IMG/VR virus record: IMGVR_UViG_3300038701_001121
Location: 1-38,496 of that record
Direction: 5' to 3' (one strand)
DNA length: 38,496 nt
DNA from: a virus
Below are positions 9,393 to 38,496 of the stretch, one piece after another. The notes beneath the pieces were generated by a model, which worked only from the letters and a program-made list of their open reading frames with translations, was not told the origin of the DNA and did not search any database. The position numbers and the translations under genes were made by a program. Every line of letters begins with the position of its first letter. Position 1 is the stretch's first letter.

Positions 9393-11550
9393 CTTGCTGG
9401 ATGAAGCTGTAAACGCTGGTATGGAAAAAGTTGTTTCCGCGACTGTCGGCGGGGATCTCTTGGATGAGGCTTCATTGAAGAACAAAGACCCCTCGATGCT
9501 GTCGGACGGCTTCAAGCGGCACCAATCCGCGTTGCTGGACAAATTGTTTGCATTGGAGAATGACGAAGCGAAACGCAGGCGGCAGCAGTCCGATATCGAG
9601 CGCACCAATGCCAATATTGGGGATGTTGAGCAGTTCTTTATTATGGCCGGTCGCGGTCTGACCAATGTTGGGCGCGGTTTTGGCTTGGCAGAACAAGAGC
9701 CGGAGGGGGTAAAAAAGCCTTTGTCCGCGCTGAACGAAGGTGAAATAATAGGTGATGTAGGTCAAGCGGTGGGCGAGGCCGCGCCGTTTGTCCCCGCTTA
9801 CATGGCGACAGGCGGCATGGGGCTTGCCCCTCGCGTGTTGGCATCAGGAGCAATCGGCGCAACGGAAGGCGGCACAGTCGCAAGGGGTCGAGGTGGAACA
9901 AGAGAAGAAATCTCTCAAAGTGCAGGTATCGGCGGCGCTCTGGCGAGTACTAGTGAGCTGCTTTTTGGCGTTCTCGGTCGCATTGGCAGTCGGCTTTTTA
10001 GGCAAATAGGGAAACGCCAGCGCGGGCCACTCATCACGCCAGACGGCAAACCATCCAAAGAATTTCAGCAGGTTCTTGAAGAAACAGGAACGTCCTTCGA
10101 TGACCTCGTAGGGCAGGCGCAAGACTTTATTGCCCGCGCTCCTGATGGAACGAACCCGGCGCAAGCTGCCAGAAAAGCCAGATTTGATTCCCTCGGCATT
10201 CCGGCTACAAAAGGCGATATAACGCAGGACTTCGGCCAACAGGCGCTGGAGTCACGTCTTGTCACGTCAATGGACGATTCTGCCGCCCCTCTACGGTCTT
10301 TGCGACGACAGCAATCCAATGAATTCCAGAAGGCAGTAGACGGCCTTATATCTGACCTAGGAATGCCTGACGAAGCGGGCATATCGGTGAAAACCGCGCT
10401 CACTGCTGAGAAATCCGTCAGAAAGGCAGAAAAGAATCGTCTGTACAAGGAACTGTTTGAAGCATCACCAGAGCTTGAATCCGTCCCGCTGTTCTCTCAG
10501 AACATCAAAGAAGCGATACCAGATCAGCGCGAGTTGAGGCGCCTCAAGCGGATTTCTGGATCTCAAGTGGATGCGATGGAAGATCTGCTGGTTGAATTCG
10601 GGGTGGTTCAGGATGATGCGCTGGTCAAGAAATTTGCGGAAAGCGGCGGAGAAATCACTCCGCTTTCTATGGGCAATTTTGAGGAATTCAGACAGGCAAT
10701 TAATCAGATTGAGCGCGCCGACCAGACCGGAGCGGTTCAGGTGTTCTCCGGCCCAATCAAGTCAGCCTTGGATTCAGAACTTGATGTTGTTGAAGATGTG
10801 GCAACCAAGGCGGGCATGGATGATGCGGCGGTTAGTTTGGCGAAGCGGGCGAGAAGCGTTACCCGTGGATTGAAAGAAGATTATTCCCCGCAAGCCTTGG
10901 CCGGACGGCTCATTGAAACCAAGAAAGATGGCATTACTCCGCTCATTGAATCATCGCAAATCAACAAGACGCTGTTCGCCAAATCAACGCCTGTTGAGCA
11001 ATTGGAAAAGACTGTTTCCCTGTTGAACAAAGCCGAAGGCGGGAAGCGGGCTATCGGCAACCTGCAAGCCGCTGCCGTGTTTCAGGCGCTGGAAGATTCA
11101 CTGAAAGCGACAGGCCGCAAGGTTGACGGAGAACTGCTGGTCAGCGGATCTCAATTTTCCAAGTCTCTGCGGAACATTGGTGAAGATAAGCTGAAAGTTT
11201 TGTTCGCGAAAAACCCCAGTCAGTTAAAGAAACTGATGAACTTGAAACAGACCGGGCTGGATATTCAGGCGTCTAACGATGCCGTGCCGAAAGGCTCTGC
11301 TCCGGTGATCATGGACATTATGCGCAGAGCGGGGCGGCTTCCTGGCGTCGCAGCGGTTGTGGATGCCGCCAACTTCATTGTGTCTGCCGGGGCCGATGAC
11401 AGGGCAGTGCGGCGGGCGCTCAAGGCAGATCCAGACTTCAAACGTACAGCCACAATGATAGAGCAAGAATTCCCCGCGCTAGCTAGTGCGCTGGGCATCG
11501 CTGGCGTCACTGCGGCAGCAAGAGAGGATGACGATGGCAACACGATTTAA
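9373..11550 (+). CDS. Large internal ejection protein, gp16-like position
   Basis: The protein has 725 residues from ATG 9373. A GTG at 9385 (MSDLLDEAVNAG) has a slightly better spaced GGTGG site and is a good alternative. Residues 90-210 hold Gly/Ala-rich, moderately hydrophobic segments (GQAVGEAAPFVPAYMATGG, GLAPRVLASGAIGATEGG) typical of phage internal proteins that enter membranes. The rest is helical and charged. As the largest and last of the ejection cluster it corresponds in position to P22 gp16 (609 residues). I see no lytic transglycosylase motif. Confidence 0.65.
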   Translation: MVASVSDLLDEAVNAGMEKVVSATVGGDLLDEASLKNKDPSMLSDGFKRHQSALLDKLFALENDEAKRRRQQSDIERTNANIGDVEQFFIMAGRGLTNVGRGFGLAEQEPEGVKKPLSALNEGEIIGDVGQAVGEAAPFVPAYMATGGMGLAPRVLASGAIGATEGGTVARGRGGTREEISQSAGIGGALASTSELLFGVLGRIGSRLFRQIGKRQRGPLITPDGKPSKEFQQVLEETGTSFDDLVGQAQDFIARAPDGTNPAQAARKARFDSLGIPATKGDITQDFGQQALESRLVTSMDDSAAPLRSLRRQQSNEFQKAVDGLISDLGMPDEAGISVKTALTAEKSVRKAEKNRLYKELFEASPELESVPLFSQNIKEAIPDQRELRRLKRISGSQVDAMEDLLVEFGVVQDDALVKKFAESGGEITPLSMGNFEEFRQAINQIERADQTGAVQVFSGPIKSALDSELDVVEDVATKAGMDDAAVSLAKRARSVTRGLKEDYSPQALAGRLIETKKDGITPLIESSQINKTLFAKSTPVEQLEKTVSLLNKAEGGKRAIGNLQAAAVFQALEDSLKATGRKVDGELLVSGSQFSKSLRNIGEDKLKVLFAKNPSQLKKLMNLKQTGLDIQASNDAVPKGSAPVIMDIMRRAGRLPGVAAVVDAANFIVSAGADDRAVRRALKADPDFKRTATMIEQEFPALASALGIAGVTAAAREDDDGNTI

Positions 11551-12385
11551 CCCAACTGGGAACCCTTTTTTCGACGGGGCCACGCTCCTGTCTGGCGGGA
11601 AACTGCGATTCAAGCAAACCGGGTCGGACACGCTCAAGGACACCTACACCTCATCTTCACTGGCTTCGGCAAACACCAATCCGGTGGTGCTGGATGCCGA
11701 TGGTAGTCATTCTGATATCTGGCTCGATGGCGTCTACAAACTGGAGGTGCTGGATTCAAACGATGTTGAGGTGCGAGAGATTGACCCCATCGGCGGTGAT
11801 GCAAGCGTGACCCCGTTTTCCGCATGGTCTTCTACCGAAGATTACTCGATTGGCGATATCGCGAGAGGGTCGAACGGCAGCTATTACATGTCCATCACAA
11901 ACTCCAATACCGGCAATGACCCTACTTCATCTGCTACGGACTGGACGCAACTGGACATTTACAAGGTCTGGAACACCAATGAGACCTACGCGGCAGGCTC
12001 AATCGTCAAGGGTTCGGATAATCAGCTATGGGTATCACAGATCTCGAATGCGGGTAATGACCCGACCACCGATGACGGCACCAATTGGCAGCGGCTCAAC
12101 ACTGAAACCCGTTGGGCGATTATCAGCGGGACTAGCATTGTGGCCGGAGAAGGGTTTGCCAGCGTCACAAATGGCAGCACAGGCCGCTTTGATATCACGC
12201 TATCCGATGCCGTTGGCAACGCCACCGAAGTGGCCTGTTTTGCCACTGTGAATAACTCAGGCGGTGGTTTCTTCGCTACTGCTGACATGTCATCCACGAC
12301 CGTCTGCCGGGTAGACATTCAGGACGACGCGGGCAACGCAACCAATACGCAGTTCGCTGTCTGGATCAAAGAGCGCGGGAAATAG
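11534..12385 (+). CDS. Tail fibre-like protein with two carbohydrate-binding-type repeats
   Basis: The protein has 283 residues from ATG 11534, chosen because AGAGAGG (11521-11527) is correctly spaced for it; ATG 11528 is too close. Residues 1-75 (GGKLRFKQTGSDTLKDTYTS, then ANTNPVVLDADG) match the N-terminal module common to phage fibres and spikes. Two tandem repeats follow, each with a WSSTEDYSIGDIARGSNGSYYMS or WNTNETYAAGSIVKGSDNQLWVS pattern ending in a Trp motif. They resemble family 5/12 carbohydrate-binding modules. A beta-rich tail completes the protein. A role in surface glycan binding is inferred. The 3' end overlaps the convergent minus-strand gene by 20 bp. Confidence 0.72.
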   Translation: MATRFNPTGNPFFDGATLLSGGKLRFKQTGSDTLKDTYTSSSLASANTNPVVLDADGSHSDIWLDGVYKLEVLDSNDVEVREIDPIGGDASVTPFSAWSSTEDYSIGDIARGSNGSYYMSITNSNTGNDPTSSATDWTQLDIYKVWNTNETYAAGSIVKGSDNQLWVSQISNAGNDPTTDDGTNWQRLNTETRWAIISGTSIVAGEGFASVTNGSTGRFDITLSDAVGNATEVACFATVNNSGGGFFATADMSSTTVCRVDIQDDAGNATNTQFAVWIKERGK

Positions 12386-12779
12386 AACCCCATTCCAACA
12401 TGCACAGTTTGTGGGCAATTCGCTTTTCTGCTTCCTGCGGATCTTCGCCCGTAAACGTGGCCCTTGACTCGTCGGTGTGTTTGGGGCCATATGCATGATG
12501 GGCACACTCGTGCCATGCAATTCTATCCATGACGAAAGAATGGTCTCTGGTGATGTAAATCCTTGCCCGCTGGCCCTTTTTGCCCCGGTTATAACAGCCG
12601 GAGTGCCACTTGTTCTTCATCCCGCCGTGGCAGATTTTACCGGCTGATGAGAACGGAATCACGATGAACACAAGGGGCTTCTGTGTGAAGTGAAACTTCT
12701 GATCCTGGGCCACGCCCACGAAATCCGCCTGCGCATTCAGGCTGGTTGCGAGGAAAGTCGCGGCACAAAAATGCCACAA
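12366..12779 (-). CDS. Secreted HExxH metallopeptidase-like protein (candidate lysogenic conversion gene)
   Basis: A signal-sequence-like segment (LWHFCAATFLATSLNAQA, then D) precedes a mature domain of about 119 residues with the zinc-binding motif HECAH and five cysteines. A downstream Glu-rich segment could give the third zinc ligand. No ATG lies between the attP core and the signal; TTG 12779 is the nearest start, but basic residues just upstream (KTK) would improve the signal, and the frame stays open through the tRNA core to 13007, so the start is uncertain. The gene sits alone between a late gene and attP, the normal place for a cargo gene. Peptidase activity is inferred from one motif only. 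Confidence 0.6.
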   Translation of the reverse strand: MWHFCAATFLATSLNAQADFVGVAQDQKFHFTQKPLVFIVIPFSSAGKICHGGMKNKWHSGCYNRGKKGQRARIYITRDHSFVMDRIAWHECAHHAYGPKHTDESRATFTGEDPQEAEKRIAHKLCMLEWGSISRAL

Positions 12780-12821
12780 TTTCGTTTTGTTAGTGTTTGG
12801 TAACTTGCGAGGCGTTGAAAT

Positions 12822-12870
12822 TGGAGCGGGTAACGAGATTCGAACTCGTGGCCTCAACCTTGGCAAGGTT
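12822..12870 (-). other. attP: attP core: 3' part of tRNA-Gly(GCC)
   Basis: Read on the minus strand, these 49 bases contain an anticodon loop TTGCCAA with its stem (4 bp plus one G-T pair using 12871), a T-arm (ACGAG-TTCGAAT-CTCGT) and an acceptor end TACCCGC followed by TCCA. This is the 3' half of a tRNA-Gly(GCC). The upstream sequence has no D-arm, so it is not a complete tRNA. A partial tRNA next to an integrase gene is the standard sign of a phage attachment site: integration replaces the 3' end of the host tRNA gene and keeps it functional. Confidence 0.9.
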
Positions 12871-12975
12871 ATGTCCATGTTTAAGGCCCGCATTATACGT
12901 GGCCTGTAGCGCATTACTGCTGTATGTATAGCCATTATCATCAGTCCTTTACAGTTATCACGCGGCACAAAATTG

Positions 12976-13362
12976 TCACACTGCCCGCGTGAAAATATCT
13001 TCCGCATGATCGCGGATGAATTCAGCCATCTCAGCGTGGTCTTTGAATGGGCCTCTGTCGTTTAGATGAGCCAAAGACTCGTAGTCACGATGACCGACTT
13101 TAATGAGAAACTTAAACACCCCGCTGGGCGACCGCAGCCCTAGTGCTTCAGCATCCTTTGGCGCCAATATTGCATAATGGATTTCGTCGTAACGGTAATG
13201 CATAACCCCGTCGTCCGCCACAATCCAAGGTTCTTCGACTTGCGTATGGGCGTATACCCCGAGGCAACAAAACCCTTCCCCGACCCTCCCAAGGCGACGT
13301 GTCACCTTTTCATACTTCGGCAAATCTTCCAGCCACTGTTCTTGTTTCGGTCCTAATTTCAT
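12976..13362 (-). CDS. Conserved phage protein with CCLGV motif
   Basis: The protein has 128 residues from ATG 13362, which overlaps the integrase stop by 4 bp (ATGA), so the two are probably translated together. The segment RRLGRVGEGFCCLGVYAH (about 26-43) resembles a family of small phage proteins of unknown function that carry a CCLGV signature. The rest is charged with two acidic helices at the C-terminus. The longer frame reaching 13506 is antiparallel-free but overlaps the integrase and lacks support. The role is unknown. Its place between int and attP means it lies at one prophage end. Confidence 0.65.
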   Translation of the reverse strand: MKLGPKQEQWLEDLPKYEKVTRRLGRVGEGFCCLGVYAHTQVEEPWIVADDGVMHYRYDEIHYAILAPKDAEALGLRSPSGVFKFLIKVGHRDYESLAHLNDRGPFKDHAEMAEFIRDHAEDIFTRAV

Positions 13363-14342
13363 ACTCTCAAAGCCTCTCTGATTTTCTCTGATGCCTCTTG
13401 CAGATGGTCGAGGTTCAAATGCGCGTAAATCATCACGCTCTCCAACTTCGACCAGCCGCCCAATTCTTTCAGCTCCGGCAGCGAAACCCCGTTCATGATG
13501 TTCCATGACGCGAAGGTGTGCCGGAATATGTGCGGATGCACGTTTTTCGCAATGCCTGCGCGTTTCTGAGCGCCCTTGAAGGCCCGTCTGCCGATGCTGT
13601 CCAAGTCCCTGCCGCGATATTGAAGCACTCTCCCTGACGGCCTGTGCAGGCGTTTGAGGACGCCCATAGCCATACTATTAATCGGCACGACGTGGACACG
13701 CCCAGACTTGTAATCGCTGGCTTGAACGGTGATGGTCTTGCGGAACATATCGACATTTTCCCACTCCAAGTGTGTGAGGTTTCGCATTCGCAACCCGGTA
13801 GCGATGGCGAGTACAACAAAGTCTTTGTGCACCTGCTCGTTCAGCGCATCCAGCAGCTTGTTAACCTCGTCAGGGGTGAGGTATTCAAGCCTTCCGGGGC
13901 CTTCTCTCAGCATCTTTACCGGCGGCGCTACTGTCAGCCATCCCTCATCAACGCAATGGCCTAGAAGCGCCCTGAGAACCACCAGATAGCGGTTAATCGT
14001 GCTGGCTTTCAAATCCTTTGTTTGCAGGTGCGTCTTGATGTTCCTAATGGTGTCGCGGTCAATCTCGTGGACGAACTTGTCTTTCAGCCACGGTTGCAGC
14101 CTGTTTATCCGCTGAACATCATCGCTCCAAGATCCTGTTTCTGGCCGCGTGTTGAAGTACGACACGACAGCAGCTTCCCAAGGGACGTGACGAAGTTTGA
14201 CCATCGCCCATTCACGCGCTTTCCGTTCGTCGTGAATCCGCTGGGCTAACTTCCGGTCGCTCGTGCCAGTAGTTTCTCGTATTCGTTGGCCACCGATTTG
14301 GAAGTCAATGTGCCAAGTTCCGCCCCTTTTCTTGATGGCCAT
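13359..14342 (-). CDS. int: Tyrosine recombinase integrase
   Basis: The protein has 327 residues. An N-terminal arm-type segment (GTWHIDFQIGGQRIRETTGT) and a core-binding helical domain (about 55-140) precede the catalytic domain with Arg185 (ATGLRMRNL), Lys212, His271 and Arg274 (HIFRHTF), Trp297 (LGGWS) in the second-His position, as in many phage integrases, and Tyr306 (VMIYAHL). It should catalyse recombination between attP at 12822-12870 and the host tRNA-Gly gene. The excisionase-like gene overlaps its start by 97 bp, an arrangement that lets excision and integration proteins be tuned together. Confidence 0.95.
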   Translation of the reverse strand: MAIKKRGGTWHIDFQIGGQRIRETTGTSDRKLAQRIHDERKAREWAMVKLRHVPWEAAVVSYFNTRPETGSWSDDVQRINRLQPWLKDKFVHEIDRDTIRNIKTHLQTKDLKASTINRYLVVLRALLGHCVDEGWLTVAPPVKMLREGPGRLEYLTPDEVNKLLDALNEQVHKDFVVLAIATGLRMRNLTHLEWENVDMFRKTITVQASDYKSGRVHVVPINSMAMGVLKRLHRPSGRVLQYRGRDLDSIGRRAFKGAQKRAGIAKNVHPHIFRHTFASWNIMNGVSLPELKELGGWSKLESVMIYAHLNLDHLQEASEKIREALRV

Positions 14343-14488
14343 TCTTCTAGCGCCTCTATGTCGTTATCGTTGAATCTCCACCGCCCCAGGATTTTGCGCC
14401 CGCACTGCCCCCGCGCAGCTAATTGGCGTATGGTCTCGCGGTGGAATCCTACCTTGTCCGCAAATTCCTTTAGGGTGTAGTACCTCAT
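14246..14488 (-). CDS. Excisionase-like helix-turn-helix DNA-binding protein
   Basis: The protein has 80 residues. Residues 1-55 form a MerR/HTH_17-type winged helix (YTLKEFADKVGFHRETIRQL, then GRWRFNDNDIEAL), the fold of many recombination directionality factors and Xis-like proteins. It lies directly upstream of the integrase on the same strand and overlaps its start. A role in excision is inferred from fold and neighbour; it could also be only a regulator of int. Confidence 0.7.
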   Translation of the reverse strand: MRYYTLKEFADKVGFHRETIRQLAARGQCGRKILGRWRFNDNDIEALEEWPSRKGAELGTLTSKSVANEYEKLLARATGS

Positions 14489-20724: not shown

Positions 20725-20753
20725 ATTGTAGGTAACTGTAGTTACCCTGTCAA
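20725..20753 (-). promoter_or_regulatory. Leftward early promoter (PL-like)
   Basis: On the minus strand: TTGACA (20748-20753), a 17-bp spacer, then TACAAT (20725-20730). This is a near-consensus sigma-70 promoter. The spacer is almost exactly the palindromic operator at 20731-20746, so a bound repressor would block polymerase directly. It drives the recombination and integration operon. Confidence 0.88.
20731..20746. promoter_or_regulatory. Operator OL-like (GGTAAC-TGTA-GTTACC)
   Basis: A perfect 6-bp inverted repeat, extended to 7 bp as GGTAACT/AGTTACC, sits inside the leftward promoter spacer. The same half-sites occur at 21261-21276 before cro. Two near-identical palindromes flanking a repressor gene are the classical sign of CI/Cro operators. 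Confidence 0.9.
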
Positions 20754-20885: not shown

Positions 20886-21215
20886 TTATTCGTCGAGAAA
20901 GGCTCTCGCGATCTTTAAGAAGCGGCGACGCACTTCCGGGTCTGGGTGATCTTGAAAAGATCGAAGAATGTTTGCTAACTCTGCGTCAAGGGAATCGCGC
21001 TTCTCCAGAAGCATAGGCCCGACGCCCTTTAGCACCCATTCATCGTTGATTCGGTGTCTGCTTTTCAGACGCTCTAGCGCTTCGTATGCGGGCGTTTTCC
21101 CCTGGTTAACCCAGCCGTAAACAGCTTGACGCGTTACGCCAGCCTCGCGACCGAGTTCTGCCATGTTCCACCCGAAGCGGTCACAGAGTATTTGTATTCG
21201 TTGATCTAGAGCCAT
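20886..21215 (-). CDS. Short HTH repressor, CI-like
   Basis: The protein has 109 residues from ATG 21215 with AGGA upstream. An XRE-type helix-turn-helix fills the N-terminal 45 residues (QILCDRFGWNMAELGREAGVT, then RQAVYGWVNQG). The middle (INDEWVLKGVGPML) is the usual C-terminal end of such domains and a helical tail follows. There is no LexA-type S24 autocleavage domain, so RecA-driven self-cleavage is not expected and induction must use another route. Opposite orientation to cro with palindromes on both flanks marks it as the lysogeny repressor. Dimerisation through the helical tail is inferred. Confidence 0.8.
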   Translation of the reverse strand: MALDQRIQILCDRFGWNMAELGREAGVTRQAVYGWVNQGKTPAYEALERLKSRHRINDEWVLKGVGPMLLEKRDSLDAELANILRSFQDHPDPEVRRRFLKIARAFLDE

Positions 21216-21230
21216 GGCGCATCCTACAGA

Positions 21231-21260
21231 ATTAAACGTAATCTGTGGTTGACGCTTCAA
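21231..21260 (-). promoter_or_regulatory. Candidate repressor-maintenance promoter
   Basis: On the minus strand TTGAAG (21255-21260) and TTTAAT (21231-21236) are 18 bp apart and point toward the repressor gene starting at 21215. The -35 end touches the operator 21261-21276, where bound repressor could activate or block it. Matches to consensus are only fair. Confidence 0.45.
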
Positions 21261-21278
21261 GGTAACTGCTGTTACCAT
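21249..21278 (+). promoter_or_regulatory. Rightward early promoter (PR-like) upstream of cro
   Basis: TTGACG (21249-21254) and TACCAT (21273-21278) are 18 bp apart, with the operator 21261-21276 filling the spacer. The layout mirrors the leftward promoter. The -10 is weak. A start point 6-8 bp downstream would fall at or next to ATG 21285, so the cro message could be leaderless. Confidence 0.65.
21261..21276. promoter_or_regulatory. Operator OR-like (GGTAAC-TGCT-GTTACC)
   Basis: A perfect 6-bp inverted repeat with a 4-bp spacer. The half-sites are identical to those at 20731-20746. It covers the spacer of the rightward promoter and abuts the possible repressor promoter, so one site can control both directions. 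Confidence 0.9.
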
Positions 21279-37431: not shown

Positions 37432-38496
37432 TGGCTTACGTTTCCGCGCAAAAGATATCCAAGTACACGTCTGCTGCTACCAGCACGACAGGGGTATTGC
37501 CTGCGCATGAATCCGGTGATCTGCTGATTGCTATCTTCAAGATGCGTAATGGGTCGGATGACTTCACGACCCCATCAGGCTGGACGGCGATTGCACATGC
37601 GGGAAGTGGCAGTATCAGTGCGGCAGCGTACTATCTGGTCGCGACCAGCTCATCAGAAACCAATCCCGTATCCACGCACACATCCGCTACTTATCACGCT
37701 TGTACGTGCGTGGTTGTGAAGGATGCGCCCAGTTCTTCGCCAATCGACACCAGCGCGTCAAGCGCGGGATACAACTCATCAGCCAATACCAGGGCATCAC
37801 GTTCAGCGACGACCACGGGGAGTAACGAATTGCTCCTGCACTCGCTGACTGAACCACAGTGGAGGCAGTCACAACCTGACCCCGGCCCGATGGTGATGTA
37901 CCGGGAATTCTTCGTTGACGGTGCGTTCTCCGACTGCATGGCGTGGACGTTTGAGGAATCATCCGGTGCATACACGCCGTTCAACTGGCGGAAAATCAGG
38001 GGCAGTTCCGATGACGTGACGATGGTCATAGCCATCAAGTCAGATGCCGGTCTTATCCCTGCTCGAAGCGGCGCGGCCTGTTCCACGCCGGTATTTTGTG
38101 GCGCTGATGGCGGATATTACGGGTACACGATTAATGACGTTTCATCGACGCTGACCGCGATTGATGGCGTTACCACAACGAACAACCCGGCAGGCGCTTC
38201 CAGCGATCCGGGCGCCGGCTTCAACCCTTACAGCTACGCGCAGCGGTTTCAGGGGACGCTTGCCACGTCAGGGTATCAGGCTGTTGCGGAATATGAATTT
38301 GATGCCGGGCCTTATTCGGTGTCGAGCAAGAAATTCTGCATTTCGTGGTCTATTGGCTCCGGTGTATACGCGCAACGGGTGGACAGCCTGGAGAATAACG
38401 GCATTGTCCTTGGTCTGCGGAGCGGTACGAACGAGTTTATCGCTTACCGGGCGGGCGGTAATGATGCGGCTCCGAAGGAAACGACCGCGATTGTTT
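37431..38496 (+). CDS. Tail fibre/tail spike protein, N-terminal part (continues at 3-2069)
   Basis: Starts at ATG 37431, sharing one base with the upstream stop (TAATG), and runs off the right edge in frame with position 3 of the window. Residues 1-95 (SGDLLIAIFKMRNGSDDFTT, then PSGWTAIAHAGSG) resemble a beta-sandwich module common at the N-terminus of phage surface proteins, usually LLLAFVAVRGG..T..PSGWT. The closed gene would encode about 1006 residues. This is not the head-binding domain of the P22 tailspike, so the way it attaches to the tail hub is unclear. Confidence 0.78.
   Translation, partial: MAYVSAQKISKYTSAATSTTGVLPAHESGDLLIAIFKMRNGSDDFTTPSGWTAIAHAGSGSISAAAYYLVATSSSETNPVSTHTSATYHACTCVVVKDAPSSSPIDTSASSAGYNSSANTRASRSATTTGSNELLLHSLTEPQWRQSQPDPGPMVMYREFFVDGAFSDCMAWTFEESSGAYTPFNWRKIRGSSDDVTMVIAIKSDAGLIPARSGAACSTPVFCGADGGYYGYTINDVSSTLTAIDGVTTTNNPAGASSDPGAGFNPYSYAQRFQGTLATSGYQAVAEYEFDAGPYSVSSKKFCISWSIGSGVYAQRVDSLENNGIVLGLRSGTNEFIAYRAGGNDAAPKETTAIV
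38386..38496. repeat. Right copy of terminal direct repeat (assembly overlap)
   Basis: Repeats 4-114 of the window with one mismatch near the last bases. See the left copy. The few bases before the shared stretch (38383-38385 versus 1-3) differ, as expected at the end of an assembled contig. Confidence 0.92.

Follow-up and report, generated by a model that had tools for sequence, protein, structure and literature searches.

A tRNA-Gly attP core of inverted polarity may alter the upstream context of a putative cargo gene in a P22-like podovirus

Analysis of a phage genome (the window, a stretch of 38,496 nt) revealed a putative attP core whose tRNA half is inverted relative to nearly all surveyed integrase relatives, pointing away from the integrase gene and towards an open reading frame (ORF) with an HExxH zinc motif. 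We consider this inverted core to be the most interesting part of the locus, and we lean towards a reading in which the locus represents the attP region of a P22-like podovirus and integration would exchange the upstream context of a cargo gene. Judging from its sequence, the window is a complete circular genome of a temperate P22-like podovirus: completeness and circularity follow from a sequence of 109 bases that the contig ends share without mismatch (4-112 and 38386-38494), while the P22-like assignment is based on the presence of portal, scaffold, coat, head-closure and ejection genes. The features relevant to integration and to the putative cargo gene are as follows:

11486-12385, plus strand: tail-type gene, converging on the HExxH ORF
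12366-12779, minus strand: HExxH ORF (HECAHH), 137 aa when read from TTG 12779
12759-12778, minus strand: predicted distal arm-type site, TGTGGCATTTTTGTGCCGCG, which forms a stable RNA hairpin
12822-12873, minus strand: very probable attP core, 52 nt of tRNA-Gly(GCC) covering its 3′ part (anticodon arm to CCA)
12892-12897, minus strand: TATAAT with a poor -35, on the integrase side of the core
12961-12980, minus strand: predicted arm-type site on the integrase side, a direct repeat, TGTGACAATTTTGTGCCGCG
12976-13362, minus strand: ORF of 128 aa in the int-attP interval, with a weak match to phrog_18067, overlapping the int stop codon
13359-14342, minus strand: tyrosine integrase (int) of the P22/Aaphi23 type
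14246-14488, minus strand: HTH protein (HTH_17), a probable excisionase in the position of P22 xis
20725-20753, minus strand: PL-like promoter at the head of a leftward operon ending xis-int-orf-attP-HExxH
20886-21278, minus strand: repressor-like regulator adjoining the PL-like promoter

A first, sequence-only reading of this DNA had placed attP in the 3′ half of a minus-strand tRNA-Gly(GCC) ending at 12822, and both the tRNA match and the flanking repeats bear this out. The core, which reads CATAACCTTGCCAAGGTTGAGGCCACGAGTTCGAATCTCGTTACCCGCTCCA from 12873 to 12822 and lies near int, shares approximately 90% identity with annotated tRNA-Gly genes from Acinetobacter and Salmonella in alignments of 50-59 nt. 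It is the sole tRNA 3′ end with CCA in the window, where ARAGORN detected no complete tRNA. A 20-bp direct repeat flanks the core on both sides (12961-12980 and 12759-12778), and its two copies are identical at 18 of 20 positions, compared with a maximum of 16/20 in 60 shuffles of the core flanks. Each copy consists of two TGTGNC units spaced 11 bp apart, and the shared pattern gave only two matches, versus 0.07 in shuffles. As direct repeats flanking a core represent the layout of integrase arm-type sites, the tRNA-Gly half with its repeats is very probably attP, and we infer that Int would bind at both repeats. Similar paired motifs are found beside the cores of P22, epsilon34 and Aaphi23. 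The exact core had no match in the genome and viral collections searched, and no integrated copy was found in them. A degenerate version of the core matched complete tRNA-Gly genes, which gave no pointer to the host.

The polarity of the core was compared with that of related loci. The tRNA half faces int in P22, epsilon34 and Aaphi23, and a survey of integrase relatives in IMG/VR and GTDB genomes yielded 65 more loci with this arrangement, many of which are closely related to each other, for a total of 68 int-facing relatives; 41 distinct tRNA 3′ ends occur among the surveyed int-facing loci, and 42 further loci stop at int and could not be judged for polarity. Among these relatives, which are only 30-39% identical to the window integrase, the window is the sole locus with a tRNA half in the int direction, rather than the convergent polarity of P22-like loci. 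The window forms a long branch without a resolved position in the integrase tree. The only other same-direction case (L173) was rejected as a parallel, as a complete tRNA-Ser after int is a different arrangement; at 2529-2860 of that locus, a related integrase is followed by two same-direction tRNA genes, the tRNA-Ser and one designated SeC by ARAGORN. In addition, two loci with integrases among the closest to that of the window (L074 and L081) also feature an open stretch of approximately 330 bp in the int-attP interval, followed by an int-facing tRNA-Cys half.

Because the tRNA half points away from int, a crossover in the anticodon arm, the point expected from the family, would restore tRNA-Gly ahead of the cargo gene, with int placed at the opposite end of the prophage. 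This agrees with the geometry proposed in the sequence-only reading, since the HExxH ORF begins 43 bp beyond the end of the tRNA half (12822) and runs in the same direction. In each of the four published shapes of tRNA-int arrangement, int adjoins the tRNA (PMC2951348), so a prophage formed from the window would fall outside them. In a clade whose surveyed members almost all share one polarity, the inverted core also offers a direct test of whether the arm geometry of an integrase fixes the polarity of integration.

The position of the HExxH gene suggests its role. In P22 and epsilon34, the gtrABC conversion genes are located between the tailspike gene and attP on the int strand (PMC2629481), and the HExxH gene, which lies between attP and the tail gene, occupies the same slot and strand, so it is probably a cargo gene by analogy. 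The locus further resembles those of P22 and epsilon34 in its plus-strand tail gene converging on minus-strand cargo, its attP in a tRNA 3′ half followed by int and xis, and its paired arm-type repeats flanking the core. It differs in that integration of P22 and epsilon34 leaves int next to the rebuilt tRNA and gtrABC at the opposite end of the prophage, whereas the tRNA half of the window points at the cargo, and in that the cargo is a single HExxH gene instead of gtrABC.

The codon usage of the HExxH ORF is gene-like, with a score of 0.151 compared with 0.085 for the 99th percentile of wrong frames. The frame is also open upstream of TTG 12779, through the tRNA half and up to ATG 13007, but the codon score of this upstream stretch (-0.205) is not gene-like. 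The product had been described as a secreted metallopeptidase. The HECAHH motif is present, as is a signal-like N-terminal segment from the TTG with an AxA-like end, and the mature part contains four cysteines. No Pfam, NCBIfam or PDB match assigned the protein to a peptidase family, and the word "secreted" hangs on a weak-looking TTG, from which the signal peptide has no positive n-region. An AlphaFold model built from the single sequence was unusable (pLDDT 40.8). No close relatives were found in viral contigs, phage records or four candidate genomes, and six weak matches among 369 genomes of one class were dismissed because the matched frame lacks HExxH. The closest comparison is with phrog_87 metallo-proteases and with HECAHH phage proteins encoded on three contigs (L057, L060 and L061). 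The window protein shares HExxH and a small size with these groups, and a signal-like N-terminus with the secreted ones from these contigs, but it matches phrog_87 at only E=0.11 and lacks the conserved ADCWA/ADCFA segment of the HECAHH proteins. We refer to it as a putative peptidase that may be exported.

The transcriptional context would differ between the two states of the phage. As the sequence-only reading had anticipated, there is no strong promoter directly before the HExxH gene, the TATAAT at 12897-12892 lacking a good -35, and its proposed check for a terminator between 12822 and 12779 was negative: the spacer from the tRNA end to the TTG (12821-12780) contains no terminator-like and no promoter-like site, so read-through from the tRNA gene in a lysogen is possible. 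The TATAAT lies on the integrase side of the core, and integration would thus move it away from the gene. In the free phage, the leftward PL-xis-int operon lies upstream on the same strand, with the HExxH gene at its end, and the sigma-70 promoter of this operon (20753-20725) matches the consensus at 11 of 12 positions (TTGACA-17-TACAAT). Only weak terminator-like hairpins precede attP (13130-12976), and these might halt int transcription ahead of the HExxH gene.

Translation poses another difficulty. No start codon other than TTG 12779 lies in the interval from the tRNA to the signal peptide, yet this TTG has no Shine-Dalgarno pairing (+2.1 kcal/mol, versus a median of -5.8 for the phage genes) and falls inside both a hairpin of -15 kcal/mol and the distal arm-type repeat, which overlaps the TTG and the first seven codons of the ORF. 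Two predicted starts are better than this TTG: ATG 12935, which is available in the free phage only, and GTG 12719.

On the reading that we favour, crossover geometry means that integration would exchange the sequence upstream of the HExxH gene. In the free phage, the gene would be the last on the PL-xis-int-orf strand, within reach of early transcription, while in a lysogen the sole nearby upstream promoter on the same strand would be that of the host tRNA-Gly, from which low read-through expression may occur. The putative start falls within the distal arm site, where Int or the folding of the RNA may keep expression down. Integration could therefore raise, lower or merely change its expression. 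A more specific version, in which the inversion of the core has made integration a promoter exchange from early phage control to a growth-rate-controlled host tRNA-Gly gene, with Int at the arm site as an extra control and a changed N-terminus, is speculative and in our estimation unlikely.

The sequence-only reading had instead proposed a lysogen-only conversion gene for a secreted metallopeptidase, switched on after integration by read-through from the host tRNA-Gly. The geometry and lack of a terminator agree with this proposal, as do the HECAHH motif, the signal-like N-terminus and the conversion-gene slot. The "lysogen-only" element is not supported, however, because the free phage carries the operon with the 11/12 promoter upstream on the same strand, with only weak terminators in between; the TTG without a Shine-Dalgarno sequence, buried in a hairpin and arm site, and the absence of a positive n-region also count against it. 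We regard this scenario as doubtful, switch-on by integration being only one of several possibilities.

Integration might also have the opposite effect, turning the gene off or shortening its product, although we give this little credence. Here, the free phage would make a 189 aa protein from ATG 12935, reading across the attP core, and integration would cut away the 5′ end of the gene, as this codon is separated from the HExxH gene in the prophage. Of the upstream in-frame ATGs tested, this one has the best Shine-Dalgarno pairing (-5.3), it is accompanied by a promoter-like site at 12961-12934 (9/12, GTGATA-16-GATAAT), and a frame that stays open across the core has a chance of 1.8% for 76 codons. 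There is also a precedent in mycobacteriophage BPs, where attP lies inside the repressor gene and integration alters the product (PMC4557955), but there the change affects the C-terminus of a repressor (PMC4557955), and in the window it would affect the N-terminus of a cargo protein, through putative translation across the core. The codon usage upstream of the TTG argues against such a protein, in which residues specified by the tRNA half would also come ahead of the signal-like segment. Alternatively, translation could begin at GTG 12719 and be independent of the core, yielding a cytosolic protein of 117 aa without a signal peptide, with 12779-12720 being arm DNA that is open by chance. The Shine-Dalgarno pairing of this GTG (-5.8) equals the phage median, and the first 18 codons of the ORF score -0.086 compared with 0.187 for the rest, a noisy difference given the few codons. 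The AxA-like end and the four cysteines suggest export instead, and the HECAHH proteins from the three contigs carry signal-like N-termini. This start seems to us improbable.

The preferred reading, an exchange of upstream context, is comparable to the KplE1 STI arrangement, in which the first prophage gene also sits behind a rebuilt tRNA and has an Int arm site over its 5′ region (PMC2951348). The difference is that the first KplE1 gene is int itself, with its own sigma-70 promoter and with the tRNA and int in the same direction (PMC2951348), whereas cargo would come first in the window prophage and int would be at the far end. Transcriptional coupling between tRNA genes and integrated elements is an earlier suggestion cited in PMC2951348, and in the literature we found this suggestion only, with no demonstration for a cargo gene. 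If lysogens do express the HExxH gene from the tRNA, the locus would offer a clear example from nature of an integrated element whose transcription is coupled to the tRNA gene it targets.

At the other end of the HExxH ORF, its 3′ end and that of the tail gene overlap by 20 bp (12366-12385) without a terminator-like site. tRNA read-through past the ORF would enter the tail gene antisense.
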